58,456 nt of DNA from positions 1-58,456 of the forward strand of contig JWZX01003199.1 of the NCBI GenBank assembly GCA_001275005.1, given 5' to 3'. This DNA comes from Chrysochromulina tobinii. Its lineage: Eukaryota > Haptophyta > Prymnesiales > Chrysochromulinaceae. Below, piece after piece: positions 23,566-55,908 of the stretch. Position 1 is the stretch's first letter. Each line of letters starts with the position of its first letter. Made by a program: the position numbers and the translations under genes. The notes below the pieces were generated by a model. The model was given only the letters and a program-made list of their open reading frames with translations. It ran no database searches and was not told where the DNA came from.

Positions 23566-24466
23566 TCAAAACCGTTCGTACTCGACCTCGAAGCCGCACG
23601 CACAGCGCTTGGTCCACGTGTCCTTGGCCTCATCGTACGTCTCGTCGGGCATGAAGACGTGCGTGTGCGACACAAACGCCGACTGCTGCGCTATGTGCTT
23701 TGCAGCCGCGGCTGGCCGCTTAGCCTGAGGCACGAGGATGGCTCCAGTGGCAATCAGAGGCAATCAGAGGCAATCAGAGGCAATCAGAGGTCATCAGAGG
23801 CCATCTCACCTGAGGCACGAGGATGGCTCCATCGCGCCGCGCCTGCTCACGTTCGGCCGCCTTGCGCTTGCGCGCCTCGCCCTTGACGACCCGATCACTC
23901 ATGCGGCGCTCGCGTTCGTTGAAGAGCCCTTCCGAGCTGCCCCACGCCTGCAGCGCTAGCGCCTCTACCTGCGTGCGCAGGAAGAGCTTCATGTCGCCGC
24001 CGTGCGAACGGCCCGACTGCGCGTATGGGTTGGGCCGGAGGAGGCAGCCGAGGCCGCCGCGCTCCTTGGTCAGCTGCCGATCGGTGAGAAAGTATTCGCC
24101 CTTGACTTTCGTCTTTATGATCAGCTCGTACTTGCCACCAGGGCCACGGGCCGCCTGCTGGCAGTCGTAGCACGCGCTCACTCCAAACGCTGCAAAGAAT
24201 TTCGGTTGTCCGCTCGCTTCGCCGCACTCATCGCAAATGCCCACCGTGCGCGGCGCGTGGTCATCCGGCGGCGGCGGTAGCACCATTCCCCGCTCCTGCC
24301 GCTCCAGCGCGTCCAGTGCTGCCTCACCCTCATAATCAAAGTCGTCGCTCTCCACGGGCGCCGTCACTTTCCGAGGTGGCGGTGGAACACCTCGCTGCCG
24401 GTTCACCTGCTGTGCCGGTGGTGGCTCGATGTAGTCGTCCTCGGCAAAGAAGCCGCCGCCTTGCAT
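23566..24466 (-). CDS. XPA: XPA nucleotide-excision-repair protein, 271 aa, two exons
   Basis: Exon 1 is 24466-23810 and exon 2 is 23724-23566, joined phase 0. The product is 271 residues, almost the length of human XPA (273). It has the four-cysteine zinc finger CDECG ... CYDC, then the XPA core with TKVKGEYFLTDRQLTKE, NPY and GGDMKLFLRTQVEALALQAW. The basic helix MSDRVVKGEARKRKAAE follows. Exon 2 supplies the conserved XPA tail, HTHVF ... CACGFEVEYERF, which in known XPA binds TFIIH. XPA verifies damage and positions the repair complex in the nucleus. I start at ATG 24466 (aaaATGc context). The frame upstream is open but overlaps the promoter shared with the divergent GBP-like gene, about 170 bases away. 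The intron is of the repeat-bearing type. Confidence 0.92.
23725..23809 (-). repeat. XPA intron bounded by a 23-base exon duplication
   Basis: The 85-base intron has donor GTGAGA and an acceptor ending GTGCCTCAG. A perfect 23-base direct repeat occupies 23724-23746 and 23809-23831. One copy ends the upstream exon and the other ends the intron. The copy spacing (85) equals the intron length. Between them lie five or six decamer units reading CTGATTGCCT in the sense direction. Confidence 0.9.
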
Positions 24467-24637
24467 TTTTCGTGTGAAGGCGCGATTCTTCCCGGAATCA
24501 ACACAAGACTCAACCGGAGACGTCAAAAATATGCTTCTCACGATTGTTTTCCGGCCACGCTTCCAAGAAGTCCCATCAGTGTGTTTCTATGGCTGCAAGT
24601 GGGGAAAAAGGCGAGCTTATTTCTCTCGCCACCCGCC

Positions 24638-27133: not shown

Positions 27134-27140
27134 GAGCCGG

Positions 27141-27300
27141 GAGGCGCACGAGGGGACCTTCACAGCGCCGTATTGAGCACCCTCGGTGAGGCGCACGAGG
27201 GGACCTTTACAGCGCCGTATTGGTCACCCACCGGGAGGCGCACGAGGGGACCTTCACAGCGCCGTATTGGTCACCCACCGGGAGGCGCACGAGGGCGTCG
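27141..27300. repeat. 47-bp minisatellite downstream of the GBP-like gene
   Basis: Units start at 27141, 27188, 27235 and 27282, each beginning gaggcgcacgagggg and spaced exactly 47 bases apart. The last is truncated. The array begins eight bases after the GBP stop codon. Confidence 0.9.
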
Positions 27301-27303
27301 ACG

Positions 27304-27530
27304 GCCCAATGGCCCATTTGGTTCGGGTGACGAAGCCCAATGGCCCACGCTTGGTTCGGGTGACGAAGCCCTGTGGCCCACGTTTGGTTCGGGTGACGAA
27401 GCCCAATGGCCCGCGCTTGGTTCGGGTGACGACGCCCTGTGGCCCACGCTGGGTTGGGTGACGAAGCCCTGTGGCCCACGCTGGGTTGGGTGACGAAGCC
27501 CTGTGGCCCACGTTGGGTTCGGGTGCGATG
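27304..27530. repeat. 32-33-bp minisatellite
   Basis: Units beginning gggtgacgaagccc start at 27325, 27358, 27391, 27424, 27456 and 27488. Spacing is 33 then 32 bases, with a partial unit at each end. Because most units are 33 bases, several frames stay open on both strands, but the translations have no protein character. Confidence 0.9.
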
Positions 27531-27919
27531 GCTGCGGCCAGGATGCGAAGTGGAAGCACGGATTAGGTGATTGGGACTGCTCTGACCATGGAACTGAATG
27601 CTGAATGTCTGAATCAGGCAGGCACTGAGAGCTGAAGATCTGCATGGATCTGGTCAAGATGTACCGTACTCGTGATTGTCTCATGGATGGTCTCTACATT
27701 TCTGTCCGGTCGCCAGTGTACGCACGCATGCTTGTGTTTGACAACTTCAGGTCGGCACGTGCCATGTGGGTTCTTTTGAGGCGTCCGAACCACCAAACTT
27801 AAAGATTAGAAACGACAGCGGGCGCCCCCTGGCCAAAGTTGTGTCCCAAAACCCGTGCGACGGCCATTTCTCTTTTAGCTGAGGCCTGCGCGGTACGCGC
27901 ACGTCACTGAGCGGCTCCG
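27531..27919. other. Upstream region of the STPGR gene
   Basis: Roughly 390 bases between the minisatellite and the STPGR start. I see no motif or exon that I can support. Confidence 0.4.
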
Positions 27920-30070: not shown

Positions 30071-31155
30071 CTAGGCTCGAAGTGAAGGCCGACCAGCGCG
30101 GTGGCCCTTGATGGCGCCCTCGAGCTCCTTCGCCACCGCGGCGCGCACCTCCTTGTTGGGTGTGAGCCGCTTCGAATCGAGATGCAGGCCCGTGAGAGGT
30201 GACGTGTCGTGCCGCTCGAGCCATTGGGTGATCGCGTACCTGATGAGGGAGGCAATCAAGAGGTCATCAGTGGTCATCATCAGTGCCGCTCGAGCCCTTG
30301 GGTGATCGCGTACCGTTCGTAGACGTGATGGTCGCACGTCGTGACTGGGTCGACGAGCAACGCGTGAGTGATCGGGCACAGCAGCGAGGGAGACAGCTCC
30401 GGAAGCAGCGACTCGAGCATCCCTTCCATCCCTTCCGACCCTTGCGAGGCGGATTCGTCAGTTTCGTCAAGCTCGTCCTCATCGCCGTCGTCCGAGGAGC
30501 TTTCGCAACGGCTGCACGCGTTCAGCAGGAGCCTGAGACGGCGCTCGTACTCCTCCTTGGTGACGGCGAGCGCGGGGCCACCCGGCAGGCACGCGCGCAG
30601 CTCCTCAGTCGAGGCGAGGTCCCGCGGCAACGCCCCGTCACGTGTCCGCAAGTCGGGGTTGGAGCCTCGCGCGACGAGCAGCTTTACGACGGCGAGATGC
30701 GGCGCGACGCGACCGCGCCTGGGGGTGGCCGAGTCGCGGCACGCGTAGTGGAGCGGGGTGTACTGCTCGATGCCGCGTGCGTCGATATCGGCGTGATGGT
30801 CGAGCAAGAGCTTGACCACCTCGAGATGCGCTGCGCTGGCCGCGAGGTGCAGGGCGGTGTTCTTACCCTTGTTGACGGCCTTGATCAGGCTCGGCTCGCA
30901 GCGCAGGAGCATGACGCACGCCTCCAAATGGCCACGCACAGCCGCGTGGTGCAAAGGCGTGTCCATGTATGCATCCTGCGCTTCCAAAGGGCTGAGCACG
31001 AAGAGTGACTTCTTCAAGCGAACCAAGTCGCCGTCCTTAGCCGCAAGAATCATGTAGCGCGTATCACAGGATGACACGCCCGCGTAGCGGCGGGCCTTCT
31101 GCTCATCTTCAGGCGAGCTCAGCCGCGCGGCGCGCGAGCCGAGAGAGGCTCCCAT
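30071..31155 (-). CDS. Ankyrin-repeat U-box protein, probable E3 ubiquitin ligase, 336 aa
   Basis: Exon 1 is 31155-30314 and exon 2 is 30239-30071, joined in phase 2. The first ATG gives MGASLGSRAARLSS. Ankyrin repeats are clear at DTPLHHAAVRGHLEACVMLL, NTALHLAASAAHLEVVKLLL and YTPLHYACRDS ... HLAVVKLLVARG. After an acidic serine-rich linker comes a C-terminal U-box: LLCPIT.ALLVDPVTTCDHHVYER, completed only after splicing by YAITQWLERHDTSPLTG and the usual PN pair (LTPNKEV). U-boxes bind E2 enzymes and make the protein a likely ubiquitin ligase, with the ankyrins choosing the substrate. Unspliced, exon 1 reads through into a stop within the U-box, so the intron is needed. Substrate is unknown. 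Confidence 0.88.
30240..30313 (-). repeat. U-box intron bounded by a ~32-base exon duplication
   Basis: The 74-base intron starts GTACGCGATCACCC and ends CCTCCCTCATCAG. The bases after the donor are a copy, with one mismatch (codon GGG versus TGG), of the first bases of exon 2. Copy spacing is 74, the intron length. Between them lie three decamer-like units. The mismatch turns the conserved tryptophan of the U-box into glycine in the intronic copy, so that copy is the decayed one. Confidence 0.88.
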
Positions 31156-31726: not shown

Positions 31727-33810
31727 TCATGGTCCGGATGTTCCGGTGCTCGTGCTCGGCGCGGGCGCCGCATGAACGCGCACGACCTTGACGCCGGCTG
31801 CAATGAGAGACCTTTGTAGCTCGGCGATCCGCCGCTCGGCATCCTCTCGGACCAGAGCCGCGCCCGCCTCGGCCTCCTTCGCGATTCGATCAGCCGCTTG
31901 CATCCCCCGATCGAGCTCGAGCTCCGCGCGTGAGGCCACCTGATGATGGAGGCAATTCGTGGTCATCAGAGGCTCAATCAGAGGCTCAATCAGAGGCAGT
32001 GAGAGCTCGCATCCCCAGATCGAGGTTCGAGCTCAAGCTCCGCTCGATGATGGTGGCCATCCGATAGCCATCCGATGTGATGAGGCAGGCAATCAAAGGC
32101 AATCAGCCAGCTAACAGCCACAGCAATCAGTGAGTCACTCAGGTCGGGCTCGAGACGGCGCGCGTTGATGAGGCAGGCAATCAACCAGGAACCAGCAATC
32201 AGAGGCACTCAGGTCGGGCTCGAGACGGCGCTCATGAGGGAGTACTACGCGGGAGGCGCGCCACCTGCTGCAGCAAGAGCTGCTGCTGGTCGAGCTGCGC
32301 TTGCATACTCACGCGCGCCGTCTCTAGCTGCTCGTCGAGCTCTTCTTGCATGCGCGTGCGCGCCGTCTCGAGCGCCCGCTGCAGCGCTTCGCGCTCCACC
32401 TCCAGCCGCGCCTCAAAGCTCGCGGTGAGCGTCGCCGTCACCTCCGCGGTCACCTCCGCGGTCACCGTCTCACGCGCCTCCTTCCAAGCGTGCACTGTCG
32501 CTTGCTGCCAGGCTTCCGCCTTCGCCGCGATGACTGCCTTGCTGACCATCTCGTCCTCGTGCCGCTGCCTCGCGACCTGACGCGCCTCCGCCTCGGCGTG
32601 CTCACGTTGCTGAAGGGCCTCGTCGGCCTTCTGTGCGGCACGCTGCGCGAGCTTCGCCTGCTCGGCCAGCCGGCTGACTGCCGCCTTGGCCGCCGCTGAC
32701 TCCGCCGCAGCCCTGCCCGTCGCCTCCATCGCCTCGTCCACGGCCTGGGAAGCCGAGCGCCTGGCGGCGGCGATAGCAGCCACAGCTTCCGTCTCGGTGG
32801 CCGCGAGCTCAGCCCGAAGCGCACCACACAGCGCGTCTCGCTCGGCCAAAGCGCGCTTCAGTGCGTCAGCGAGCTTCGCGGCCGCGGCGGCCTCGTTGGC
32901 CGCCATTGACTCCTTGAGCATACCTGATGAGGATGTAATGAGGATGGCCATCAGAAAACACATCGGAGGTCATCGCTCATCGGAGGTCATCGGAGGTTAT
33001 CGTAGGTCATTAGAGGCCATCAGTAGGCCATCAGAGGGCTCCTTGAGCAGAGCAGCTACAGAGCAGCCTACTCGTGCTCTCCTGCAACAGTCTCCGACTG
33101 CTCACGAGCATCGCATTCGTATCCTCGAGCTCGTGCTTGGCTTTCGTCTGGAAGCTCCGCGCGCGCTCCTCGGCAATGGAGAGGCTGCCCTCAAGCTCGG
33201 AGAGAGCGCGCGAATAGCTGGCGCGCTCGATGGCGCCGCGCTCGCTCTCCGCGCCTTTGGCCGTTAGCAGCCGCTCGAGCACACGTCGACTGTTGCCCAG
33301 TGGGAAGTCGGGCGCGAGCAACTTGCCGCCGTTGTCGAGCAAGCAGCTCAGGATTTCGGAGGAGAGCGCGGCGTTGCTCGTCTGAGCCTTGACGCCGTGT
33401 CGCAGGAGATGGCACGCTGCGTCTCGCGCGCCACCCTGCGCCAGGTCCCTACCTATCACCAAGAAGATGGTCGCGAGCTCTTCGGCGAGGTGCGCCGTCT
33501 CCGTCTGGAACTGCTGCTGGTTCGACATTTCTGCGGACGCTCGTGAGGCGGCGTCAAGATTTCGTCCGTCTGCTGAGCTCATGCTGCTGCTGTTACCCTC
33601 TCGACCAGACGTCGTGACGGCCAACCCCCACCCTGTTGGCTGAAGGCCCGCCAAGCCCAAGGGACCCAGAGTCTTGCTGTGCGGGCCAAGGCGGTCAGCG
33701 TTGAAGACCTCCACCGAGGATGACGACTTCATGACGCGCTTACCCACTTCCTTGAAGCGCAGCACCGCGGGATCAAGTGTCGCCCGCGGTGTCAATTGTC
33801 CCAAGGGCAT
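31727..33810 (-). CDS. Alanine-rich coiled-coil protein, 540 aa, three exons
   Basis: Exons are 33810-33060, 32923-32265 and 31939-31727, in phases 1 and 0. The sum is 541 codons. The N-terminal part has a helical domain with ELATIFLVIGRDLAQGGARD and ILSCLLDNGGKLLAPDFPLG. The rest is a long coiled coil rich in Ala, Glu, Arg and Gln, with blocks such as AEVTAEVTATLTASFEARLE and QQQLLLQQ. The tail ends APAPSTSTGTSGP. No catalytic motif, signal peptide or membrane segment is visible, so a structural or scaffolding role is the only reasonable inference. Both introns are repeat-bearing. Splicing joins CTG CTC T to GT ATG and CAG to GTG without disturbing the heptad-like pattern. Confidence 0.75.
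31940..32264 (-). repeat. Repeat-bearing intron 2 of the coiled-coil gene
   Basis: Donor GTGGCGCGCC, acceptor CCTCCATCATCAG, 325 bases. It contains diverged copies of the start of exon 3 (near 32006-32050, matching 31897-31935) and a 26-base direct repeat, cactcaggtcgggctcgagacggcgc (first 20 bases shown by its start), at about 32134 and 32208. Decamers such as CTGATTGCC fill the rest. Confidence 0.75.
32924..33059 (-). repeat. Repeat-bearing intron 1 of the coiled-coil gene
   Basis: Donor GTAGCTGCTC, acceptor CATCCTCATCAG, 136 bases. The 11-base word TGCTCAAGGAG occurs just after the donor and just after the acceptor. The body reads CTGATGGCCT, CTAATGACCT, CCGATGACCT and similar units. Confidence 0.78.
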
Positions 33811-33941: not shown

Positions 33942-36704
33942 CTATGAAAACGACGAGTCTCCCCATAGGGAGTCGTGGGGGCATCGGCCGCACGTGCGCA
34001 TGCAAATGTCGCGCACGAATAGAGAGTTCTTGCGCGAAGGCACCGGGCTGTCGCAGCTGAACGCGCCGTCCCGAGCACCAAACAAGCTCGTGGCGAGGCC
34101 GCCGGTGCCACTCCTGTTCCCCCCAGTGCTGCCCCCTGCGTGGTCCCCCCCGACGAGCGCCGCGCACGAGCGTGGCGCAGTCTTCCACAGCTCGTGAGCC
34201 TCGAGAGTCTTCCACGCGCGCAAGGTGGTTCGACGCATCTGCTCGGGGTACGCGTCGGCGCACGCGCTGTGCCGGTTCGCGCGCTCAAGGGACGCCTGCA
34301 GCCTCGCGGGCAGCGGCTGCGAGGCCGCCTCATCCAGAGCGCGTAGCAGCAGCTCGAGCGCATCGCCAGGTGTGTCGCCCATCCCATAATGCATTCGATG
34401 TGCATGCATGCTGATGGACTGTTGCATCTGGCGAACGCGATCAGCCGGGATGGCGCGCAGTGCGGCCGCGACGTCAATCTCGCCCGAGAGCACCTGTGAA
34501 CCAACGGCGAGCGCAGTGTGAATGAACCAAGGGCGCCCATCGACCGCCATCGGTCGCAATCAGCCGCAATCAGCCGCAATCAGCCGCAATCGGTCGTACT
34601 CGGCCGTACTGGCCGTACTCCTACGCACTCCGACGCACTCGCACCTTGCGCATATCGAGCAGCACGCTCGACGTATCGCGAAAGGGCCCCCAGTGCAGGG
34701 GCCACAGGTACTGGTATGCATGGGGTGTGAAGATGACTGGTATGCACCCGAGGGTGAGCGCGTCGACCTGCGACTTGCGGTGGTCCGCACATCAGAGGCC
34801 GTCAGAGGCCATCAGAGGCCATCAGAGGCTATCAGAGGCTATCAGAGGCAATCAGCCGCGTACCTGCGACTTGCGGTGGTCCCCGAAGCCCGGCGGCTCG
34901 AGGCAGAAGACAGACTCGCGCTTCGATCGAAGGGCGTCGACAAGTACGGTATCCATTCGATAGTGGGACACAAGCCGACAAGTCGCGTTGCCGAGCTGCA
35001 GGCATTGCTTCACGAGCAGCGAGCGCAGGCGCGACGCCTCTGGGGATCCTTCGGTCGAGCCGCCATAGCTCATGAGGTAGGGGCGCGTGCTTGCCTGATG
35101 AGGGTTGGGCGCCGTGCTGAGCGCCGTGTTGAGCGCCCATGGCCGAGGCTCACCCGCGCGCAGATGCACGCTCGACACGAGCGGTGCCGAGAAGAGCCGT
35201 TGGCGTACCTGATGAGAGAGGCAATCAGAGCCTGATGAGCTTTTGGCGCGAAGGCAGCGGTGCCGAAAGGAGCCGTTGGCGTACCATCGCGCCAAAGGTA
35301 CTCTCGCCGCTGAGGAGAGAGGCAATCAGAGCCGTTGGCGTACCATCGCGCCGAAAGTACTCTCGCCGCTGAGGAGAGAGGCAATCAGAGCCGTTGGCGT
35401 ACCATCGCGCCAAAGGTACTCTCGCCGCTGAGGAGAGAGGCAATCAGAGCCGTTGGCGTACCATCGCGCCAAAGGTACTCTCGCCGAGCAGCTCGCTATA
35501 GAGCGGCCCCGTCCTGATGGCAGGCGTCAGGGCGAGCAGCTCGGCGTTCGCGCGGCGCGACTCGACGAGCAAGTCGTACCTGATTAAGGAGGCCATCAGT
35601 CGCCATCAGTAGCCATCAGCCGCCATCAGCCGCCATCAGTCGCCATCAGCCGCCATCAGACGCAATCAGCCGCCATCAGAGGCAATCAGTCGCAATCAGA
35701 GGCCGATTCGACGAACCAGTCGTATCTGGTAGGTGGACGCGCTGTGCTGAGCACTAGCATGCAAGGCAGGTCATCAGTGGCAATCAGCGTACGCAGGCTC
35801 CGCGCCTCGACAGAAGCGCGCCGTGCTGAGCACTTGCATGCAAGGCAGGTCATCAGTGGCAATCAGCGTACGCAGGCTCCGCGCCTCGACAGAAGCCATC
35901 GAGCTCAAAGAAGTGGATGGGCACGAAGACGTGCTTCCTGGCGGTCTGTGGGGACCAGTGCTCGAGCACGTGTCGCCAGTCCTCCTCATACAACCGCTTG
36001 CACACGTGCCACAAGCGCTCCTCGTCGGCCGGGGGCATGAACTCCCACACTCTCGCGATCTCCTTAGGCGTCGCTTGGCGACTTGGAGGGAACTCGAGCG
36101 GGACAAGGAAGAGACTCGCCTCTTGAGGATCGCTCACGAGCCGACAGCGCTTCGAGCTCAGTACGCGCCCGAGCACCACGGCCCCTGTATTGTGCTGGTC
36201 TGAATAGAAGAGCCACGGCTCGTTGAGCGGCCACCCAAAGCCGACGTCCAGGAGCTGCTTGGAGCTGAACTGGGACGCGTTGTACACGAACACGGATGGG
36301 CAATCACGCTCGCCCACCGCGCTGTTCGAGGTCGACGTCGCGACGACGGCGGCGGCAGTCCTCGTGGCCGCCGCCGGAAGCTCCACAAATCCTTCACCAC
36401 GGGCAGTTGTGGCGATGGCATCGACGCTGTCGACCACTGCAGCACGTGCTGCTGCTGATGTAAAAATGGTAGTGCCCGACCGTCGGGTGAGCTTTGGAAG
36501 TGCCGTCTCCTCGCTCGCCTGTGCTTCCAGTTGCTGCTGCTGCTGCTTCTGTTGCTCCGTGAGTGAGCGCCACCGCGCGCTGTGCTTCTTGTTGCTCGCA
36601 CGATGAGGCGACTCGAACGCAAGCAGGTCCGACTGAAGGATCAGAGAGAGCGCTGCCAAGAGCACCAGAGCATAGGCAAGCAGCTCGCGGTTGGAGCACC
36701 TCAT
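33942..36704 (-). CDS. Exostosin-like (GT47) type II membrane glycosyltransferase, 656 aa, five exons
   Basis: Exons are 36704-35872, 35579-35462, 35208-34864, 34767-34645 and 34493-33942. Phases are consistent and the sum is 657 codons. An N-terminal signal anchor (LLAYALVLLAALSLILQSDL) is followed by a Gln-rich stem. The catalytic region begins CPSVFVYNAS and continues DPQEASLFLVPLEF, RPYLMSYGG, then RSKRESVFCLEPPGFGDHRKS and VDALTLGCIPVIF, which are signature exostosin blocks. The last exon has the usual VRQMQQSI region after VLSGEIDV. Such enzymes build cell-surface or extracellular polysaccharide in the Golgi; donor and product are unknown. Each intron falls inside a conserved stretch that is continuous only after splicing. 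The tail beyond about residue 580 is serine- and glycine-rich and has no match I know. Confidence 0.88.
34494..34644 (-). repeat. Repeat-bearing intron 4 of the exostosin gene
   Basis: Donor AAG then GTGCGAG, acceptor TTGGTTCACAG, 151 bases. Units read GGAGTACGGCC then CTGATTGCGG several times. The 3' end lacks the usual CCTCATCAG and uses TTCACAG. No clear exon copy is seen here. Confidence 0.65.
34768..34863 (-). repeat. Exostosin intron 3 bounded by a 20-base exon duplication
   Basis: A 96-base intron between CGCAAGTCGCAG and GTCGACGCG. The 20-base word cctgcgacttgcggtggtcc (plus strand) occurs at 34767-34786 and 34863-34882. Spacing equals intron length. One copy ends the exon and the other ends the intron. 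The interior is CTGATTGCCT, CTGATAGCCT and CTGATGGCCT units. Confidence 0.88.
35209..35461 (-). repeat. Exostosin intron 2: four-copy 59-bp array of exon-plus-intron pieces
   Basis: The unit boundary gtaccatcgcgcc (plus strand) recurs at 35281, 35340, 35399 and 35458, spaced exactly 59. In the sense direction each unit holds 25 bases copied from the end of the upstream exon (CGGCGAGAGTACC plus the following 12) and then 34 bases that look like a complete miniature intron, GTACGCC ... CTCTCCTCAG. The real acceptor appears to be CTCATCAG at 35209, just before the exon starting GTACGCCAACGGC. Confidence 0.85.
35580..35871 (-). repeat. Exostosin intron 1 with a 79-bp tandem duplication
   Basis: Donor GTACGCTG, acceptor CCTCCTTAATCAG, 292 bases. 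A 79-base segment including the end of exon 1 is tandemly duplicated (gcgcctcgacagaag at 35802 and 35881). A diverged copy of the start of exon 2 lies near 35706-35727. Between them are about a dozen decamers. Confidence 0.8.
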
Positions 36705-37791: not shown

Positions 37792-37841
37792 GCGGCGCAA
37801 AATGCTCGTGCGGAATTTGTGTGTGAATCGGATTTGCAAGG

Positions 37842-38050
37842 TCAAGTCAAGTCAAGTCAAGTCAAGTCAGCATTTATGACGTGTCGCCTCTAGATGGATC
37901 CCCCTCCGCCATCTCCATCGACTCCCGTCCTCCACTGCTGGCTTCCGGAGCACACTCGATAGGCTTCCGTATGGTTGTCTGTTGTTTATGTATAGACTTG
38001 ACTTGACTTGATTTGCAAGTCAAGTCAAGTCAAGACAAGACAAGACTATC
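37842..38050. mobile_element. Putative non-autonomous element with (TCAAG)n inverted ends
   Basis: A run of TCAAG pentamers at 37842-37869 is mirrored by CTTGA pentamers from about 37995. Between them lie about 125 bases ending in a 27-base core, atggttgtctgttgtttatg and seven more, at 37971-37997. The same core occurs inverted at 57324-57350, again flanked by the pentamers. A further pentamer hairpin follows at 38007-38050. No coding capacity. Calling it a MITE is inference. Confidence 0.5.
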
Positions 38051-38190
38051 GGATAGTCAAGTCCAGTCTAGTCTAGTCTCAATTAAATTCAATTCCATTC
38101 ATAAAAACTATTTGAACTTATCCTTTTCACACCCCCATTTCGATGAAAATGAGGCCTTCACCCTGAAAATGAGGCCTCACTCACACCTCG

Positions 38191-40422: not shown

Positions 40423-43400
40423 TCAATCTTCATCGCCATCCTTTTCGTCGCGCAGCTGGAAGCGCAGCCCTCTGGTGAGCTTCTCCGGCCCCCCTGCAGC
40501 CTTTCGCTCCCTCGCGGGCGGCCGGCTGCTCGCCGTACTCACCTGGTCGGGGAAGCACTCAGACGCACTCAGTGGCACTCAAACTGACACAGACGCACTC
40601 AGAGGCAAAGCTATAGGCGTGGTCTCACCGACGAGAGCCAAGCGCTCGTCGAACGGCCGCGGCTCGTAAAGCGCTTGGCCGCCTCCGTCGCGCGCGCCGT
40701 CTCGAGCGCCTTGCGCACACCCTCGATGCCCGACACGACGCCCTGCGCCCACGGGTGGCGCACCAGGCACTCGTCGTACGTCTCGAGGGCCTCTGCGTAC
40801 CGGCGCAGCCCGTGCAGCGCCGCCGCGCGCGAGCGGAGCGCGCCTGATGAGGGAGGCAATCAGCGGTCATCACAGTTCATCACAGTTCATCAGAGGTCAT
40901 CAGAGGTCATCAGAGGTCATCAGAGGTCATCAGAGGCCGCGCGCGAGCAGAGCGCGCCTAATGAGGGACGCACTCAAGGACGCACTCAAGGAAGCCACAA
41001 TCAGAGTTCATCAGAGGCACTCAGAGGCACTCAGAGGCACTCAGAGGCACTCAGAGGCACTCAGAGGCGAGCAGCTTCGCGCACCGATATGTCGAGGCTC
41101 GAGGGCGAGCGATCAGACGCAATCAGACGCAATCAGACGCAATCAGAGGCGTAGGCATCTCACCGATATGTCGAGGCTCGAGGGCGAGCGCCTTCTCAGC
41201 GTCGGCCAGGGCGCGCTGATGCTTGGATTGGCGCACATGCACGTTCGCGCGGCGCGCATAGCTTTCGGCATGGGTCGCATCGAGGGCAAGCGCCGCATCG
41301 AGCTCGATCTGCGCCGCAGCGAGATCGTCGCGCTCGAGCGCCGTGTCGGCGCGCCGCGTGAGTTCCGTCAACGAGTCGGACGGGTGGGCGGCGAGAATGG
41401 TGCTGGTGAGTCGCTCGGCGGTGCTTGCCTGATGAGGGACACAATCAGAGGTCCATCAGAGGGACATCAGAGGTCCATCAGAGGTCCATCAGAGGGACAT
41501 CAGAGGGCCATCAGAGGTCCATCAGAGGGCCATCAGAGGGCCATCAGAGGTCCATCAGAGGGACATCAGAGGGACATCAGAGGTCCATCAGAGGGACATC
41601 AGAGGGACATCAGAGGTCCATCAGAGGGCCATCAGAGGGACATCAGAGGGCCATCAGAGGGACATCAGAGGTCCATCAGAGGGACATCAGAGGGACATCA
41701 GAGGTCCATCAGAGGGCCATCAGAGGGACATCAGAGGTCCATCAGAGGGACATCAGAGGGACATCAGAGGTCCATCAGAGGTCCATCAGAGGGACATCAG
41801 AGGTCCATCAGAGGGACATCAGAGGGACATCAGAGGTCCATCAGAGGCACTCAGAGGTCCATCAGAGGTCCATCAGAGGTCCATCAGAGGTCCATCAGAG
41901 GTCCATCAGAGGTCCATCAGAGGTCCATCAGAGGGACATCAGAGGCACTCAGAGGTCCATCAGAGGTCCATCAGAGGGACATCAGAGGGACATCAGAGGT
42001 CCATCAGAGGTCCATCAGAGGTCCATCAGAGGTCCATCAGAGGTCCATCAGAGGGACATCAGAGGCACTCAGAGGGACATCAGAGAGTAAATCGCTCTCG
42101 GTCTCTGTAGCTCTCGGCGGTGCTTGCCTCGGTGGAGTCGCGCGCCGTTCCGAGCAGCGCGAGGGCCGCATCCAGGTGCTGTGAACGCACTGCATCCGAG
42201 GAGGCGATGGCATGTGCTCGCAACAGCGCGCGCGCCGACTTGATGACATGAACGACGACGCCCATCGAATGCGCGTGCTCGGCCGCCATCGTCGCCGACG
42301 CGTTGCTCGAAACGGAACTAGTGCTGGCGGCGGCGGAGGCGGCGGTGGAGGCGGCGGTGGTGGTGGAGGCGGCGGCGGCGGTGGAAGCGGCGGCGGTGGT
42401 GGCGAAGGAGGAGGAGAGGGTGGAGACGGCATCATCTCCCAAAGGCAGCGGGGGCGGTTCGTCTACCGGATACCAGTACGCGAGCTGCTGCACAGGCCGG
42501 TACGTGCCACTGCGCTGATCGAAGGCTGTGAATAGGTGCGGAATGAGCTCGTGCTCGATGCGCGCCTGATGAGGGAGGCCATCAGACGCAATCAGACGTA
42601 CTCAGACGCAATCAGACGCACTCAGATGGGGAAGGAGCTCGTGCTCTACACATCGCCTCTGCCGCCGACGGGAGCTTCTCGAGATTCTCATCAGCGGCAA
42701 TCAGCGGCAATCAGTGGCAATCAGCGGCGCAATCACCTCTGCCGCCGACGGGAGCTTCTCGAGATTCTCCTGCGGAGGTGCGGGGTGCACACTCAGAGGC
42801 CGTCAGTGGCAGTCAGTGGCGCAATCAGCGTCATAATCAGTGGCAATCAGTGATGCAACCAGTGACCATCAGTGGCAATCAGTGACGCAATCAGTGGCAA
42901 TCAGTGACGCAATCAGTGGCAATCAGTGACGCGATCAGTGGCAATCGGAGACGCAACCAGTGGCAATGACCTGGGCGACGTAGCGCACGCCACGCGGGCC
43001 TCCAAGCAGAGAATAGCAGTCGCCATCATCGGGCACCATCCGGTAGAAGGGCTGCGATGGCCCTGAAGGGAGGCCGACGACCCCATCCCACTGGGAGACG
43101 TCGATCTGAGGACGCGCGTCCCAGCCAAAGACGACGGCGCGGAATCCGAACTTGCGATGGCGGAGTACCTGATGAAGGACGCAATCAGACGCACTCAGGT
43201 GCAATCTCCCAAGGGGCAGAGTACCTGATGAAGGAGGCAATCAGACGCACTCAGATGCAATCTCCCAAGGGGCGGAGTACCTGATGAAGGAGGCAATCAG
43301 ACGCACTCAGGTGCAATCTCCCAAGGGGCGGCGCACCTGACGAATCAACGCGACGAGGCAATCAGAGGCCCTCAGAGAGGCCCTCAGATGAAAGCAGCGG

Positions 43401-45580
43401 CCCTCAGCGGCCCTCACGCCCGTACTAGATGAGGGGAGCAATCAGTTGCAATCAGTTGCAATCAGTTGCAATCAGTTGCAATCAGTTGCAATCAGTTGCA
43501 ATCAGTTGCAATCAGTTGCAATCAGCGGCCCGTACCTGGCCCACATGGAACTGGATGCCCTCGCGGCCCGACTTAGCCTCGCGCTCGGCGAGGTTGGTCG
43601 CGAGATATTCCTCGATCTGGCCCACGTGCCTGATGAGGGAGGCCATCAGCTGCCATCAGCTGCCATTCGGTGCCATCAGTTGCCATGAAGTGCCATCAGC
43701 TGCCATCAGTTGCCATCAGCTGCCATCAGCTGCCATTCGGTGCCATTCGGTGCCATCAGTTGCCATCAGCTGCCATCAGTTGCCATCAGTTGCCATCAGT
43801 TGCCATCAGTTGCCATCCATTGCCATCGATCTTTCTCGATCTGGCCCACGTGCCTGATGGCGCGGTACGTGGCGCTGAGCGCCGCCCTCGAGGCCATTGC
43901 AACGTCGGGCGCCGTGCCGGGCGCGGCGGCGGCGAGGCGGAGTGTGGCGTTCACGGCGCTGCGATGGGCGTTCACGGCGCTGCGATGGGCGTTCACGGTC
44001 GCGGCGGCGGCATCGTCGCCGGCGGCGGCCTCATCAGCGCCCGACACAGCGCCGTCCTCGTCCTCGACGTCGTCGTCCTCCTCCTCCTCGTGCCCTTGCT
44101 CGGCATCCATTGCCAAGGTTGCCGGGGCGCCGTGCTGGGCGCTCGCCGCCGCCGGAGCCAACGGCCCTCCGGCCGCGCCAGACGCCGCGCCGTGCCGAGC
44201 ACTTGCATGCGCCGCGCCCTCGTGCATCGCTATCCCTGCGAGCGTCATCGCCGCCTCGGCTTGCATGCACGAGCGCACGGCGCGCCGCGAGAGCGCGCGC
44301 ACGTCGCGCAGCATGCAAGTGCTCGGCACGGCGCGGCTTGGCCCGAGGCGGCGGGCAGGGGCGGCGCTCGACACGACGCCCTCGCCGAGCAGCTCACGGG
44401 GAGAGGCGGTGGCGCCCGGGACGGCGCTCGCTCCGCGCGGGTGCAGCAGCTCGATCCCGCCGGCCTGCTCGCGCTGTGTGGAGCGGACGAGCGCTGTGTT
44501 GAGCGCATCCACGGCGTCGGCGGGAGAGCGGGCAGAGGCCACCGCAGAGGCCAGGGTTGCAGCAGCAGACGCCGCCGCTGCGCTCTCCGCCGATGCCGAT
44601 GCCGCCGCCGCCGCCGCCGCCGCCAGCCGCCGCCTCGCGAGTTCCGTGGCTTCCCGTTCGGTGGCCGCGAGCACGAAGGCACCCATGCCGGCGGAGACGC
44701 TAGAGAACGAGGCGAGCAGCGGCGCCACCTGATGAGGGACGCACTCAGCGGCAATCAGCATGCAATCAGCATGCAATCAGCATGCAATCAGCATGCAATC
44801 AGGGTTGGGCATGGGGCGAGGGCTGGGAGCCGGCTGAGGCGGAGCAGCGGGCGGTACCTGCCGCAGCAGCGCCGCCAGCGGTGGCTCGTGTCTGGAAGGC
44901 TCGAGCTCGCTCCCCGGATAGGCGAATGCGAGCTGCTCGGAGGGCACGAAGCGGCCGTGCGTGCCATCAAACGCCGGGAAGATGGCCGCGGACAGGCTCG
45001 GGTGCAGGATGCGTCGATGCGAGAGCGGCACTCGCTCGAGATTCTCCTGGGCGACGTATCGAACATCACGTGGGCCACCGAGGTGCTCGATGCAGTCGGC
45101 GAGGTCGGGGAGCATCTTGTAAAAGGGCTGCTCGGTGCCGCTCGGCAGGTTCTGCACGCCGTCCCACGAGGAGACATCCACCGCGGGCCGCCGGTCCCAC
45201 CCGATCACGACGGCGCGGAAGCCGAAGACCTTGTGTCTCAGAACTTCGCCGATCTGGTAGTGGATGCCTCGCCTGTCGGCCTTGTCCACGCGCCGCTTGA
45301 CCGTCTCCTCGCACTCGCTGTGCAGCTCGCCGAGCGCGCGGAGGGCTTGGAACGCGCCGTCCAGGGTGCCTCCCTCGTCGCGCCACGCCGCGCGCAGCAG
45401 CGCCTGCAAGCCACGCTGGTCCGTGGGCTTGAGCCGTCGCGCGAGCGCGCTCACATTGTCAGGGAGATTTCCGAGGGGCACCGTGAAGCGCGAGTGGCGG
45501 ACGGCCGGTGCCATCGTCGAGCGCCACATCGCGCGGTAGAGACTGAGCGTCACCGAGCGCTCTGCGGCTGGGATCGCCAT
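40423..45580 (-). CDS. Protein with two YccV/HspQ-like domains and TPRs, 986 aa, nine exons
   Basis: Exons: 45580-44858, 44728-43854, 43629-43536, 43168-42971, 42769-42737, 42565-42128, 41428-41164, 40843-40629, 40542-40423; phases agree and the sum is 987 codons. Two hemimethylated-DNA-binding (YccV/HspQ-like) domains are visible. The first is HYQIGEVLRHKVFGFRAVVI, GWDRRP, QPFYKMLPD and YVAQENLERV. The second is FHVGQ, VLRHRKFGFRAVVFGWDARP, QPFYRMVPD, YVAQ and ENLEKL, the last two joined only by splicing in a 33-base microexon. Each is followed by a similar module ([IL]FPAFD.. or LFTAFD.., then QLA). The C-terminal part has tetratricopeptide repeats, with exon 7 ending ALALEPRHIG and exon 8 continuing ALRSRAAALHGLRRYAEALE. 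Domains of this type bind proteins or modulate proteases in bacteria and F-box proteins; function here is unknown. All eight introns are repeat-bearing. Confidence 0.88.
40543..40628 (-). repeat. YccV/TPR gene intron 8
   Basis: 86 bases, donor GTGAGACC, acceptor CCCCGACCAG. Units are mostly CTGAGTGCC rather than CTGATTGCC. Only the hexamer GGTGAG is shared across the two junctions. Confidence 0.7.
40844..41163 (-). repeat. YccV/TPR gene intron 7, exon copies at both ends
   Basis: 320 bases, donor GTGAGATG, acceptor CCTCCCTCATCAG. A perfect 30-base copy of the end of exon 7 sits at 41082-41111 (original 41161-41190). A near-copy of the start of exon 8 plus the acceptor sits near 40939-40972. 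Arrays of CTGATGACCT and CTGAGTGCCT lie between. Confidence 0.82.
41429..42127 (-). repeat. YccV/TPR gene intron 6, a 699-bp intron almost wholly an 11-mer array
   Basis: About 58 head-to-tail units, sense CTGATG[GT][AC]CCT or CTGATGTCCCT, run from about 41446 to 42087. Four or five units are CTGAGTGCC. The donor appears to be GC (GAG then GCAAGC), the acceptor GTCCCTCATCAG. The 17-base word ctcggcggtgcttgcct (plus) lies across both junctions. Confidence 0.85.
42566..42736 (-). repeat. YccV/TPR gene intron 5 with a decayed copy of exons 5 and 6
   Basis: 171 bases, donor GTGATTGCG, acceptor GCCTCCCTCATCAG. Inside, at about 42633-42692, lies an unsplit copy of exon 5 running directly into a diverged copy of the beginning of exon 6 (GAGCACGAGCTC). 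This is how the exon would look before interruption. Confidence 0.8.
42770..42970 (-). repeat. YccV/TPR gene intron 4
   Basis: 201 bases, donor GTCATTGCC, acceptor CGCACCTCCGCAG. The body is a long run of CTGATTGCCA and CTGATTGCGTCA units. The acceptor is not of the common CATCAG form. Confidence 0.75.
43169..43535 (-). repeat. YccV/TPR gene intron 3 with two array types
   Basis: 367 bases, donor GTACGGGCC, acceptor GTCCTTCATCAG. The 3' part repeats a roughly 58-base module three times, each with a copy of the exon start plus acceptor (plus strand ggagtacctgatgaagga, at about 43163, 43219 and 43276). The 5' part is a run of about nine identical CTGATTGCAA decamers at 43440-43525. Confidence 0.82.
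43630..43853 (-). repeat. YccV/TPR gene intron 2, apparent GC-AG intron
   Basis: 224 bases. After CCATCAG the donor copy reads GCACGTGGGCCAGATCGAG, and the exon after the acceptor CCCTCATCAG starts with the same 19 bases. Matching splice positions on the two copies forces a GC donor. The interior is about 17 decamers, CTGATGGCAA or CTGATGGCAG, with variants that replace the CTGAT start. Confidence 0.8.
44185..44336. repeat. 26-base perfect inverted repeat inside a coding exon
   Basis: Arms at 44185-44210 and 44311-44336, reading ccgcgccgtgccgagcactt then gcatgc on the plus strand, are exact reverse complements about 100 bases apart in YccV/TPR exon 2. Near-copies of one arm occur in the exostosin intron 1 (35816-35840, and a diverged one at about 35738) and in the ShKT gene intron 1 (near 54582-54605). 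Confidence 0.85.
44729..44857 (-). repeat. YccV/TPR gene intron 1
   Basis: 129 bases, donor GTACCGCCCGCTGCTC, acceptor CGTCCCTCATCAG. The exon after the acceptor begins GTGGCGCCGCTGCTC, a diverged copy of the donor side. Units are CTGATTGCATG and CTGATTGCCG. Confidence 0.8.
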
Positions 45581-46662: not shown

Positions 46663-46776
46663 CAGATCGGATCTCGCTTGAAGATAAGGGGTCCGAGATT
46701 ACAGGGAGAACCCCCCGCTCACGTGTTCACAACGCTCTCCCATTTCACGCGACAACCGCTGTCCTGCGCCACAGCC

Positions 46777-50969: not shown

Positions 50970-51075
50970 GTGATCGTGCGTGAGAAGATTGTCGAGACGA
51001 AGAGAAAGTGAGCACAAAAATCGTCAAAAATGATGCAGCGATGTGATCAACACAACGCGCGTTTCTCCTCACTAC

Positions 51076-52822
51076 ATGTATCACCATGGACGGAGGTGTG
51101 GCCGACACAACCTTTGTTTCGTCAGTATTACCAGCCAATTCACACCGGATGACGAGATGCTCACGACGATGTGGACCTCGGTGGCTTTGGGCCTGCATGG
51201 CGTCGTGCGACCACCGCGAGTGGTCGTGCGAGTCGCCGAGGCTGGTTTCGTCGACCACGAAAACCTCGAGCGTGGCGAGACCTGCTCGCTCGCGCTCAAG
51301 GCGTTTGATGCCTCGGACCACTTCCTCTGCGCTGGCGCCCTCGTGCGGCGGCGCAGCTCGTCGCTCGGCTACGAGGTGCACGACTGCTGGATCGCGGATA
51401 GCATCGAGAGTGGCGTGGGGCCCAATCTGCAGACGCGCGGCGCGCAGCTCATCCTCGATGCGCTATTCCTGCACCACCTGGAGGCGAGGACGCGTGGCAA
51501 TGACGTGGTGCAATTCTCTGTCTTCGCCGGCGACGGTACCGGGTGCTACGCGGCCTCGCACGTGGCCGCGCGCTCGCGCGGCTTCGTGCGCGAGTCCACG
51601 TGCGCCGATAGTGACGAACGCACCCTCACCTTTTGTGAAGACACGGGACGCCAGCGCTATGAGGAGGAGATCGCTGCTTTCGGGACGGCGGTCGAGACGG
51701 CGCCCGAGACGGCGCCCGAGACGGCGCCTGCGACGGCGCCCGAGACGGCGGCGGCAGAGGACGGTGCGGCGGCGGCAGAGGACGGTGCGGCGGCGGCGGC
51801 ACGAGTGCAGCAGCTTCGCGTCGTGCGCGGCATCCTGCAGCACTTGCGCGTCCAGACGCCGGACACGACGCTCGAAGGTGGCTCACGAGGACGTGCCCGG
51901 CGCAGTGCCCGCCACGTCGTCCGGGGCCCAACGATGTCGTCGTCGCTCCTGACGAACCTTCCAAGAGATGACGACGACTACTCGCTCCCTCCGCATCTTT
52001 TGGAAGGTTCGTCCGGTTCGTCAGGTTCGTCAGGTTCGTCAGATGACGACGACTCCTCCCTCCCTCCGCCGGACGATGACTACTCTCTTCCAATCGCGCC
52101 TACTCGCACCACCTCAATCAGCGGCACTCATGGGTCATCAGTGGCAATCACCTCAATCAGCGGCAGCCGCGGCAGCCGCGGCTTCAGCAACGTCCTTCCT
52201 CATGGTTTCATCAGTGGCTTCAGCGACGTCCTTGCGGATTTACGCTCCGATGAGTGGCAGCCGTTACGCACCTCGTCGCGTTGGCGCAACCCGTGCTTCA
52301 TTTCGTCCTTCTTCACGGTTTCGTCAGTGGCGAGCGCGTGCCATCACGGCGCGGTGCACTTTGGCGTTGGGCCGCTCCTCGTTCTCTTGTCATCTATTCT
52401 CTACTGGCAGAATCCGGTCGGGGAGATCGCCTCCACCCTGATCGTCTCTTTGTGGCCACTGATGACCACTGATTGCCACTGATTGCCGCTGAGGGTCACT
52501 GATTGCCACTGATTGCCACTGAGGGCCACTGATGACCTTTGATGGCCTCCATCATCAGGTGAAGGAGAGCGCCCGGCGCGCTGTCGACCTTGTCACCGTG
52601 CGTGTAGGCATGGCTTGCCAGATATGGTTAGCAAGCCGCTCATGCGCACCGGGCTGGGCGCCGCGGATCTTTGGCGGGTACGCACTTGGGGCGCTCTGCT
52701 ATGCCGTCGGCCGAGTGCTCACGGTGCGTGGTCATCTGCTGCCGGGCGCGTTCGTGCACTGTGGCGTGCACCTCTTCGCGAATGTAGGCAACCTGCTCAT
52801 CTTGCCGTTGGTTCGGGGCTGA
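51076..52822 (+). CDS. Two-exon protein, possible GNAT-like start and CPBP-type protease end, 534 aa
   Basis: Exon 1 runs to 52416 and exon 2 is 52559-52822, phase 0. ATG 51076 is the first; ATG 51157 (MLTTMWTS) is an alternative. The N-terminal 200 residues (HDCWIADSIESGVGPN ... AQLILDALFLHH ... GFVRES) weakly resemble a GNAT acetyltransferase. A low-complexity acidic and Ser/Gly linker follows. The C-terminal part resembles the last half of CPBP/RCE1-type membrane proteases. FGGYALGALCYAVGRVLT and LLPGAFVHCGVHLFANVGN give the HxxxN motif (HLFAN), preceded in exon 1 by ACHHGAVHFG. The EExxxR motif of that family is not visible, so activity is doubtful. The two halves may be separate genes that I have merged. 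Confidence 0.45.
52417..52558 (+). repeat. Repeat-bearing intron in a plus-strand gene
   Basis: 142 bases, donor GTCGGGGAGATCGCC, acceptor GGCCTCCATCATCAG. The exon after it begins GTGAAGGAGAGCGCC, a diverged copy of the donor side. Units read CTGATTGCCA and CTGATGACCA on the plus strand, the reverse complement of the arrays in minus-strand genes. The arrays therefore follow the direction of transcription. Confidence 0.8.
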
Positions 52823-53401
52823 ACACTGGAACTGCCAACAGTAAACGTAAGTAAACGGGTATGCCAAGGGGAAGCCCCTTGGGTATGCGAAGCTCACCGT
52901 GCACCTTGCACCTACCTTGCACCGTGGGGCTAGGGCTGGGCGAGGGCTGGGGGCTGGGCGTACCCCCTTCATCTTCCGCCATCGAGGACGGCCCGGCTAT
53001 ACCACATGGGCTATAACGGCATCCACGCCCTGTGTGCCCACGCCACAAGCACATTGTGAGCACAATGACAAATACGAGCGCATCTCCTAAAATTCATCTG
53101 ACGTGGCGGTAGATGTTGACGCCCAGCGCTTACGTTATAGTTTCGTTATAGTCCGGTCCTCCCCGCACCTCGACCTCCACCGTCTCCGCTCCACCCTCAC
53201 CACGCGACGCCGACGACGCGCGCACGATCGTGGCGTATCGTATGGTGAGTTGTATACCCCGCGTGCCCGAAAGCCGAATATGAAGAGTTTCAGTTTCGAG
53301 TTATAACGAGTTCGCGCAATCGTGCAGAACGCGCGACGCTGAACGAGCTACGCTTGTATCATTTGAACCGAACCGAATAAGCACAAGAACGCTTTTAACG
53401 G
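52823..53401. other. Convergent intergenic region
   Basis: A compact palindrome, ccaagggg-aag-ccccttgg, lies near 52864-52882, just beyond the upstream gene. Two short tandem-like runs (ccttgcacc; gggctggg) occur near 52905-52960. No gene supported. Confidence 0.4.
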
Positions 53402-55908
53402 CTAAGACAGCTTGAGGTCGCGTGACGTAGGCAACGGCATCCAACCCCCCACCTCCTCCGCGGCTCCATGTGAGCCGCCCGCCCCAGCGCCTCCCCCACG
53501 CGATCCTCCGTGGTTCATGCTCATCGGCAGCGCGGCTGGCCGGCGTGCGCCGCCGCTGACTCGGCCGCGGAGCATCCAGCCGATCAGGCTGCCGCCCACG
53601 CCGCTGATGAGCAGTGCAATCGGATCGCATCCTCCGGGCATCGACGACGGCGCTCGGCACGGCGCCGCGCTGCCGCCCTCGCCGCCCGCTCCGCCGCCGC
53701 CGCCACTAGCGCCGCCGCCGCCGCCGCCGCCATGCATTGACGCCTCGGCCTCGGCGTGTCCGTCGCCCGACACGGCGCCCATCCCGGCGCCCGTCCCGGC
53801 GTTCGTCGCCTTGGACGGTGGAGGCGGCGCACCGGTCGATGCGTCGTGTTGGGCGGCTCGAAGCTTGGAAAGCTCCGCTTGGCAATCGGCCTCCAGGGCA
53901 CGGTACACCTGCGATGGTCATCAGAGGTCATCAGAGGTCATCAGAGGTCATCAGAGGTCATCAGAGGCAATCGGCCTCCAGGGCACGGTACACCTGCAAG
54001 AGCCACAGCCACCAACGGAACTCAGTGGCACTCAGTGGCACTCAACGGCACTCGACGGTACTCAGCGGCACTCAGCGGCACTCAGAGGCATTCAGCGGCA
54101 CTCAGCGGCACTCAGAGGCATTCAGCGGCACTCAGCGGCACTCAGAGGCATTCAGCGGCACTCGACGGTACTCAACGGCAGTCAGTTTGGAAATCGGCGG
54201 CCTCGACGGCACGGTACAGCTGCCCGCCGAGCAATCCGTGGCTATCAAGAACAAGAGCAATCAGTGGCCATCAGGAACGGTCAGTGGCTATCCGAAACGC
54301 AATCAGTGGCAATCAGTGGCAATCAGTGGTCATCAGGAACGGTCAGTGGCTATCCGGAACGCAATCAGTGGCAATCAGTGGCAATCAGTGGTCATCAGGA
54401 ACGGTCAGTGGCTATCCGGAACGCAAGGCTGCACCTCCGTCAGCTTCGAGTGCTTGCCCTCAATCGCGTCCTCGAGCTGCTCCTTCTGCTCAAGCTTTCG
54501 ACGAAGGACGCCGAGCTGCGCCTGGACCTGCTGCTGCTGCGCCTCGGCGCTGGCCGTCTGTGAGGTCGCGCAGGGGAGCGAAGCGCCGTGGTGAGCACAT
54601 GCATGCGCCTCGGCGCTGGCCGTCTGTGATGTCGAGCACCACCATCCGAGCTCATCATCGATCATCAGTGGCCATCCGACGCCATCAGTGGCCATCAGAC
54701 GCACTCCGACGCACTCCGATGCACTCCGATGCACTCCGATGCACTCAGACGCACTCAGAGGCACTCAGATGCACTCAGATGCACTCAGATGCACTCCGAC
54801 GCACTCCGATGCCCTCAGCGCACAATCCGACACCCTCAGCTCGCACCTGCTCTCAATGAGGGAGGCAATCAGTGGCAATCAGAGGCCATCAGCGAGCTCG
54901 CACCTGCTCTCAATGAGGGAGGCAATCAGTGGCAATCAGAGGCCATCAGCGAGCTCGCACCTGCTCGAGCTGCGTCTTGCATGCGGCCTCGGCGCTCGTC
55001 GCCTGCTGCAGGCGCGAACGCGCCGTCGCGAGCTGCTTCTGGGCGGCGTTTGTGATCGTCTCGGCGCGCCCCTTCTCGTCAGCGAGCTCCTGCGTGCGTG
55101 CCTGCAGCTGCTCGCGCGTGTGCTGCAGCTGGACCAGGCAATGCTGTGCCTCCGTCTGCAGATGCTGGTCGTCGCTCAGATGGCGCTTATCTTCCGCGAG
55201 AGTGCCCGCTCGGCACACCTCAAGCTCGTTGTTGCACTGCTGGCGCGCGGCGCGGCAGCTGCGCACCTCGCGCAGCGCGCTCGTCAGGCCGGTTCGCGCC
55301 TGCTGCAGGATCGTGCTCGATAGAGCGCTCATATTGCCGGGCAGCCGTGCGGCGCCGTAGCGGGCATGTCCCTTGGGCTCGTCCTCGCCGGAGGAGGTGA
55401 GCTTGGGAGCGAGCAGGTCCTCGACGACGACGTCGGCGGCGCTGGCGGTGGCAGTGCTGGCGGTGGCGTTGCTGGAAGCAGTACTGCTGGCAGCAGTACT
55501 GCTGGCAGCGGTCTTGCTGGCGGTGGCGCGAGCGGGTGAAGGCGACAGTGGTGGCGGCAGCTCCTCGGGTGACGGTGAGGGCGGCGATGGCGATGGTGGT
55601 GGCGAAGGTGGCGGCCGTTCCTTGGGTATCGCCGCCGACGCTGCCGGCGCGGCAGCCGGATTCGACGCGCTGCTGCTGCTGGGCGCGGTCCGGCTCGGAA
55701 GGTCGCAGACGCCGCACGCAACTGGGCATGAGGCGAGCATGTACCTGCGGTTCTTCTCGCACTCACCGTTTGCTGCCCACGCGCCGCAATGGGGCGCCTC
55801 GTCGATGCACGGCTCGGTCGTCGGTCCGGTCGTCGGTGCGCCGATGACGATGACAGAGGCGACCAGGCAGAGAGACATCGATCGACGCCCGCCGCAGCCG
55901 AGAATCAT
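53402..55908 (-). CDS. ShKT-domain, coiled-coil, membrane protein, 525 aa, three exons
   Basis: Exons are 55908-54961, 54557-54435 and 53908-53402, all phase 0, summing to 526 codons. The N terminus has a hydrophobic leader (SLCLVASVIVIGA). It is followed by one ShKT-type six-cysteine domain, CIDEAPHCGAWAANGECEKN then YMLASCPVACGVC. This is a common extracellular module in algal and animal secreted proteins. A proline- and serine-rich region comes next, then a coiled coil that continues across all three exons (ELEVCRAGTLAEDKRHLSDD, QTASAEAQQQQVQ, YRALEADCQAELSKL). A glycine-rich stretch leads to one likely membrane span, PIALLISGVGGSLIGWMLRG. It is probably a surface or secretory-pathway protein; function unknown. 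Both introns are repeat-bearing. Confidence 0.78.
53909..54434 (-). repeat. ShKT gene intron 2 with three copies of the exon 3 start
   Basis: 526 bases, donor GTGCAGCC, acceptor ACCATCGCAG. The beginning of exon 3 (plus ggcctccagggcacggtaca then cctgc) recurs perfectly as a 32-base word about 86 bases away (about 53880-53911 and 53966-53997), and again in diverged form near 54200-54224. Decamers between include CTGATGACCT, CTGAGTGCC, CTGATTGCCA and a longer unit with CGTTCC. Confidence 0.85.
54558..54960 (-). repeat. ShKT gene intron 1 with a duplicated 57-bp module
   Basis: 403 bases, donor GTGCGAGCTC, acceptor GCGACCTCACAG. A 57-base module containing a copy of the exon 1 end, decamers and a CCTCCCTCATTGAGAGCAG acceptor-like tail is tandemly doubled at about 54839-54953. 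Near the 3' end a 26-base copy of the start of exon 2 lies at about 54604-54630. Confidence 0.83.

Follow-up and report, generated by a model that had tools for sequence, protein, structure and literature searches.

The origin of the bulk of spliceosomal introns is a long-standing question, and the source and the junctions of new introns can usually no longer be read. Introners are said to have been worked on first in Micromonas and Aureococcus, and the Emiliania genome paper reportedly mentions repeats within introns. Here we describe a family of introns represented by 19 members in seven genes of a 58,456-nucleotide (nt) contig of the haptophyte Chrysochromulina tobinii (JWZX01003199.1, the whole of which is referred to as the window). 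These introns contain arrays of 10-11 base pair (bp) units, often together with copies of adjoining exon sequence. Among the closest described systems are the introners surveyed by Gozashti et al. (2022, PMC9860276), with duplications of 3-9 bp and often inverted repeats; their splice sites may be half element and half target, GC donors occur, and a haptophyte introner with 4-bp duplications is described from Chrysochromulina sp. This survey removed low-complexity families. The introner elements of Amoebophrya (PMC7789003) show direct repeats of 3-5 nt, inverted repeats of 8-20 nt and many non-canonical splice sites. Exon repeats of 4-12 bp accompany the neointrons of Daphnia (PMC4202315), and in a set of 213 introns, direct repeats close to the borders (4-30 bp, mean 11.4) have been read as insertion marks (PMC11782384). 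In the RNA-dependent RNA polymerase (RdRp) gene of potato, a duplicate of the 3' side of an intron and the head of the downstream exon gave rise to a new intron (PMC4974935), and in Cryptococcus introns were created by repeat growth within one repetitive gene (PMC2395259).

The array introns of the window belong to a genome-wide family. In the 53.15-Mb, 2253-contig genome that was searched (the window being C2040 in the contig labelling used), the conserved intron end CTGATTGCCTCCCTCATCAG is present at 4604 places with at most three mismatches, CCTCCCTCATCAG has 1670 exact matches and a 25-mer of the array gives 5160 overlapping matches, compared to one, one and none, respectively, for the reversed patterns that served as controls. 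In the main plan, exon 1 is followed by an intron that opens with a copy of 9-53 nt from the start of exon 2, continues with the array and closes with CATCAG, before exon 2 itself. At 72 of 120 three-prime-end sites the exon head recurs upstream with a score of at least 9, versus 7.1% of swapped heads (at a score of at least 16, 49 of the 120 versus 1.3%), which bears out the original prediction, a first reading of the window, that exon copies are part of these introns. In addition to what that reading had noted, the piece that is copied comes mainly from the start of the downstream exon, and this copy brings in the 5' splice site. The 5' splice site would so be derived from the host exon, and the insert would contribute its branch-point-like units and 3' splice site; CTGAT is a putative match to the branch-point consensus yUnAy. 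Exon 2 starts with GT in 47 and with GC in 16 of 72 terminal acceptors (77 terminal sites minus five non-introns), because the intron opens with a copy of the exon-2 head. Among the 77 terminal sites, 43 have an exon-head copy with a score of at least 9 (median length 22 nt, range 9-53, identical in 16 of the 43) and 52 one of at least 8. The sites were picked by motif, which fixes the composition of the last nine bases of the acceptor, and the sets of 120, 126 and 131 sites differ slightly in motif rules and loci.

In a second form, seen in the XPA gene of the window and at loci L031 and L040, a pure array lies between exon copies that supply their own AG. Units of exon plus array also grow in tandem, another feature beyond the original prediction, as seen at 35270, 43159 and 54838 in the window and at L032, L033 and L040. 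Other array units (GGAGCTCTGC and GTGACGAACCCCTC) occur in or beside similar introns at L063 and L045, the unit thus not always being based on CTGAT.

Within the window, the 10-11 bp arrays are confined to positions 23745 to about 54966 (Tandem Repeats Finder, TRF). Splicing out the 19 array introns in silico gave full open reading frames (ORFs) in all seven genes, as the original prediction of a plan shared by these genes had it. The XPA and U-box genes, with one array intron each, yield products of 271 and 336 amino acids, the unspliced ORFs ending at 230 and 291 amino acids; the products are 540 amino acids for the coiled-coil gene (two introns), 986 for the YccV/TPR gene (eight), 507 for the CPBP-like gene (one, plus strand) and 525 for the ShKT/coiled-coil gene (two). 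The unspliced ORF of the exostosin gene, which has four array introns, ends at 283 amino acids, and its 635-amino-acid product was built with the exonic stretch 35095-35157 taken out besides these four. This stretch as an intron was considered and rejected, since relatives encode a similar motif there. Donors are GT in 17 and GC in two of the 19 introns. The recurrent 3' end proposed originally holds in part: (C/A)ATCAG ends 12 of the 19 introns, but the other seven end on a different AG, and the AG of an exon copy sometimes serves as acceptor (XPA and the exostosin intron at 34768). The features of the window are as follows.

23725..23809, minus strand: XPA intron; pure array between 21-nt exon copies (23810-23830 and 23725-23745), acceptor AG within the exon copy
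30240..30313, minus strand: U-box intron; 31-nt copy of the exon-2 head, short array, then CCTCCCTCATCAG
32924..33059, minus strand: coiled-coil gene intron 1; restored ORF
31940..32264, minus strand: coiled-coil gene intron 2; restored ORF
35580..35871, minus strand: exostosin intron 1; compound, contains a 79-bp repeat
35209..35461, minus strand: exostosin intron 2; exon-plus-array unit of 59 bp in 3.7 copies
34768..34863, minus strand: exostosin intron 3; flanked on both sides by the exon copy GGACCACCGCAAGTCGCAG
34494..34644, minus strand: exostosin intron 4; restored ORF, relatives
35095..35157, minus strand: exostosin non-intron; exonic, ends CATCAG, motif resembles that of relatives
44729..44857, minus strand: YccV/TPR intron 1; restored ORF
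43630..43853, minus strand: YccV/TPR intron 2; GC-AG, exon-head copy of 26 nt
43169..43535, minus strand: YccV/TPR intron 3; compound
43169..43336 (ends approximate), minus strand: inner part of YccV/TPR intron 3; three 56-nt units related to the intron on contig C1249
42770..42970, minus strand: YccV/TPR intron 4; restored ORF
42566..42736, minus strand: YccV/TPR intron 5; contains a second copy of a 33-nt exon
41429..42127, minus strand: YccV/TPR intron 6; GC-AG, 59 array units
40844..41163, minus strand: YccV/TPR intron 7; exon copies in series
40543..40628, minus strand: YccV/TPR intron 8; restored ORF
52417..52558, plus strand: CPBP-like gene intron; restored ORF
54558..54960, minus strand: ShKT/coiled-coil gene intron 1; exon-plus-array unit of 57 bp
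53909..54434, minus strand: ShKT/coiled-coil gene intron 2; restored ORF
44777..45580, minus strand: first YccV domain; lacks the introns 3-5 found in the second domain, used for the empty-site comparison

Restored frames and protein motifs support the array stretches as predicted introns. Removal of the U-box intron restores VYER followed across the junction by YAITQWLERH, and seven relatives (P0070-P0076, 41-54% identity) have one continuous frame at this point. At the four exostosin junctions, most of 11 relatives can be aligned free of gaps; these relatives, like the seven of the U-box gene, serve as empty sites, and some of them are located on contigs of 9-26 kb (the longest 25.6 kb). All five window junctions compared with relatives (four exostosin, one U-box) are supported, and the uninterrupted first YccV domain aligns gap-free over 146 residues with the second domain minus introns 3-5, so that the claim that intron removal restores domains in frame stands. 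Spliced fragments from elsewhere in the genome, encoding an ABC-F ATPase and a PRP16-type helicase, can be aligned with solved structures across the junction, and so can that of an asparaginase, with a small gap close by; the structure match of an FtsZ stops two residues beyond the junction and says little on it. Insertion into an exon, with the empty site retained in relatives, is seen at the protein level, and some of the relatives could be complementary DNA (cDNA). A protein-database search for transcript evidence on the exostosin gene gave no near-identical match.

Some inserts can be traced to the 3' parts of introns in other genes, which the original prediction had not foreseen. It was predicted beforehand that an unexplained segment between exon copy and array might have come from a source intron of another gene, as that intron's exon copy. 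Three of the eight orphan segments tested have matches in introns of other genes on other contigs: that of the asparaginase gene (L049, contig C19) in C395, that of the FtsZ gene (C107) in C1396, and that of YccV/TPR intron 3 of the window in C1249, C730 and C714. Reversed controls of these searches gave no match in seven of the eight cases and one in the remaining case. Over 70 nt, the C107 insert matches the end of the C1396 intron without a difference, the flanks being alike at only 18 of 68 positions; the opening bases of the insert, AACTCCG, are exon sequence of the C1396 gene. The C19 insert and the C395 intron end agree at 61 of 62 nt, including a piece of the C395 gene exon, and 108 of the last 112 intron bases agree between YccV/TPR intron 3 and C1249. 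Each traced pair has a copied stretch that terminates at the source AG, and where this stretch includes exon sequence of the source, the direction of copying is known, the orphan part being an exon-head copy that belongs to the source gene. These pairs show that 3' parts of introns have been copied between unrelated genes with a precise right end. Together with the 4604 genome places, such copies in trans substantiate the proposal that unrelated genes share one family of introns made by one process. A phage-carried element was also considered and rejected, the one match on a viral contig being a chance match in a phage-like reading frame.

The arrays follow the direction of transcription. The best coding frame lies on the sense strand of the array in 40 of 44 flanks, and a cruder codon score, by which some sense introns of the window are labelled antisense or unclear, assigned 64 of 87 clusters to sense, six to antisense and 17 to neither. 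Among the 100 matches listed, 70 sites lie on contigs with several matches; neighbouring 20-mers less than 1.5 kb apart share the strand in 35 of 35 pairs (19 of them less than 300 nt apart, often in one intron), and those 1.5-10 kb apart in eight of 11. The original prediction that the arrays are no random satellites is in line with this: random satellites are rejected by the strand agreement and by the 20-mer with its conserved end. The sense orientation is best explained by selection, because sense arrays carry stops in all frames and their complements none, as found for the five units tested. In agreement with this, at L029, which is outside the set of 87 clusters, an array lies antisense to, and in frame with, a 366-amino-acid open frame, between 21-nt copies at 503-523 and 560-580. 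This frame has a weak CysS_C match just below the curated cut-off, and the stretch 503-580 is apparently an insertion retained as coding sequence, a single case.

The bases shared at the two junctions of the inserts favour template switching. At the left junction, the mean overlap between exon and array is 2.23 bases over 13 junctions, where 0.69 would be expected. For the right junction, four source-target pairs were used, whose exon heads have six, three, five and four nt in common; the mean of 4.5 compares with 1.63 in randomly paired introns of this set (P about 5e-4). The C714 pair, which is outside this test, shares six nt and would lift the mean to 4.8. Microhomology-mediated template switching is thus cautiously favoured as the process by which the intron 3' ends spread. 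DNA synthesis at the target would switch template by means of a short match between the source exon head (GTRCG-like) and the target exon, copy the 3' end of the source intron, and return to the target via a second short match some tens of bases back. This step back would duplicate the exon head, the GT or GC of which would become the new 5' splice site. Only spliceable, frame-neutral introns would survive, and nearly all copies would then be seen in the sense orientation and with the geometry described, while the same slippage may later multiply units and exon-plus-array blocks in tandem. A strict lariat-tail insertion from the branch point is unsupported, the inserts beginning before or far upstream of a CTGA unit. 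More tentatively, the array introns may represent a self-propagating class of spliceosomal introns without a transposase, a possibility put at somewhat short of even. The replicating unit would be the 3' half of the intron (branch-point array and 3' splice site), template switching would be guided by exon sequence resembling a 5' splice site, each new host exon would be duplicated into its own 5' splice site, and antisense copies would persist only where they are read in frame as coding sequence, as at L029, the one case.

Several observations weigh against the template-switching account. The contigs that carry the seven intron-free U-box relatives measure 1.1-3.1 kb and may represent cDNA, and two near relatives (94-96%) run into the U-box intron and stop there; the latter are taken as DNA, but would be unspliced messages if derived from RNA. 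No exon-head copy is found at a score of 8 in 25 of the 77 terminal sites (some clearly decayed), a few of the 43 copies are array-to-array matches (L065, L068 and L080), and the swapped-head controls are inflated by the shared array, 40 of 145 pairs reaching a score of 12, mostly via the CATCAG end. The pure-array inserts of XPA, L040 and L029 lack this end. Five of the eight orphan segments match only themselves in the genome search, and in the C1249 family the choice of the source unit is the author's reading. The left-junction test covers 13 of 19 usable junctions, and that at the right junction consists of four pairs, also read by the author; when compared with pairs both starting with GT its expectation rises to 2.69 and its support is weaker (P about 0.006). 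Finally, the precise AG ends could also stem from the 3' end of an RNA.

Such an end would be provided by target-primed reverse transcription, in which a reverse transcriptase of the long interspersed nuclear element (LINE) type would use a nicked exon to copy either intron RNA or unspliced pre-mRNA; the 3' end of the RNA would give the AG end, 5' truncation the variable left end and a staggered second nick the 9-53 nt duplication. Duplications of variable length and 5' truncation, as in LINE-type retroinsertion, are indeed present, the bases shared at the left junction fit, and the constant 3' end does so for the 12 window introns ending in (C/A)ATCAG, the others differing. The genome also holds 26 RVT_1 matches, several in long open frames. 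These reverse-transcriptase matches (e.g. C2236:14348), several of which are in stop-free frames of more than 2000 amino acids, are not tied to the array introns. Target-primed reverse transcription is nevertheless considered unlikely, given the pure-array inserts without the 3' end (XPA, L029 and L040) and a right-junction sharing with the source exon head that it does not require unless unspliced RNA was the template. The repair of staggered double-strand breaks, capturing intron DNA and duplicating the exon by overhang fill-in as proposed for the Daphnia neointrons, agrees with the shared bases at the junctions and with exon bases duplicated at opposite intron ends, as in Daphnia (PMC4202315). 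It is quite unlikely here, as the Daphnia duplications are 4-12 bp compared to a median of 22 nt, and as pieces captured at random should not regularly terminate at the source AG, as they do in every traced pair.

That the arrays are degenerated non-autonomous DNA transposons, i.e. introners as described, would explain one family in many genes, with an element that brings one splice site and finds the other in its target (PMC9860276), and in some copies, such as the U-box intron, the ends CTGATGA...TCATCAG are complementary. However, with duplications of 9-53 nt versus the 3-9 bp described (PMC9860276), and with traced inserts that start at arbitrary points in the exon copy of another gene and have no constant left end, this origin is very improbable. 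The original prediction of introner-type elements was right in effect, one family being present at many sites, but the short fixed duplications of DNA-transposon introners are absent. The last alternative, old ordinary introns in which satellites have grown and exon-like pieces arose by local tandem duplication only, can draw on the serial exon-plus-array units and on the fact that local duplication can make introns (PMC4974935, PMC2395259). As a full account it is refuted by the trans copies of 62-70 nt in unrelated genes, and thousands of copies of one 20-mer and the empty sites also speak against it, leaving it next to no credence.

Other features of the window were noted alongside the array introns. 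The region 1133-19494, which adjoins the intron-rich part and in which TRF gives no 10-11 bp arrays, holds two giant open frames of 3157 and 3014 amino acids with VWA and AAA matches, possibly midasin-like. Adjacent minisatellites of 47 and 33 bp are located at 27137-27525 beside a guanylate-binding protein gene, the product of which has its best named matches in Prymnesium parvum and Emiliania huxleyi, in keeping with a haptophyte origin. A sequence of about 40 bp ending in GTCAA repeats occurs at about 37960-38060 and at 57300-57370, inverted between the two places. A phrase like GCATGCAAGTGCTCAGCACGGCGC recurs at 35738-35896, 44200-44330 and 49480-49500, in introns as well as in coding sequence of several genes, and may be another dispersed repeat.

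The array introns allow the donor intron, the recipient exon, the two junctions and the empty site to be read side by side, and candidate copies number in the thousands. Predictions that can be counted thereby follow from the competing models of intron gain, and a concrete picture of intron birth is obtained. Copying of intron 3' ends in trans combined with long exon-head duplication was found in no title or abstract opening of the open-licence literature searched. Surveys that filter out low-complexity introns could miss this class, and array introns may have been filtered from the introner survey in this way (PMC9860276). Like the introners described there, the array introns derive from one sequence family that gives introns at many unrelated sites, insert and target providing one splice site each, but they differ in their exon duplications of 9-53 nt, low-complexity array body, variable left end and traceable source introns. 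Invasive introns with direct repeats in a protist are shared with Amoebophrya (PMC7789003), from which the array introns differ in repeat lengths and splice sites. Compared to the Daphnia neointrons (PMC4202315), the repeats are longer, one family is present at thousands of places and some source introns are known, and the abstract of PMC11782384 mentions neither a shared insert family nor a source intron. Repeat growth is common to the array introns and the Cryptococcus case, the latter being limited to one repetitive gene (PMC2395259). The potato RdRp duplicate is close to the unit found here, but represents a single local event (PMC4974935), whereas in C. tobinii copying also proceeds in trans between unrelated genes.

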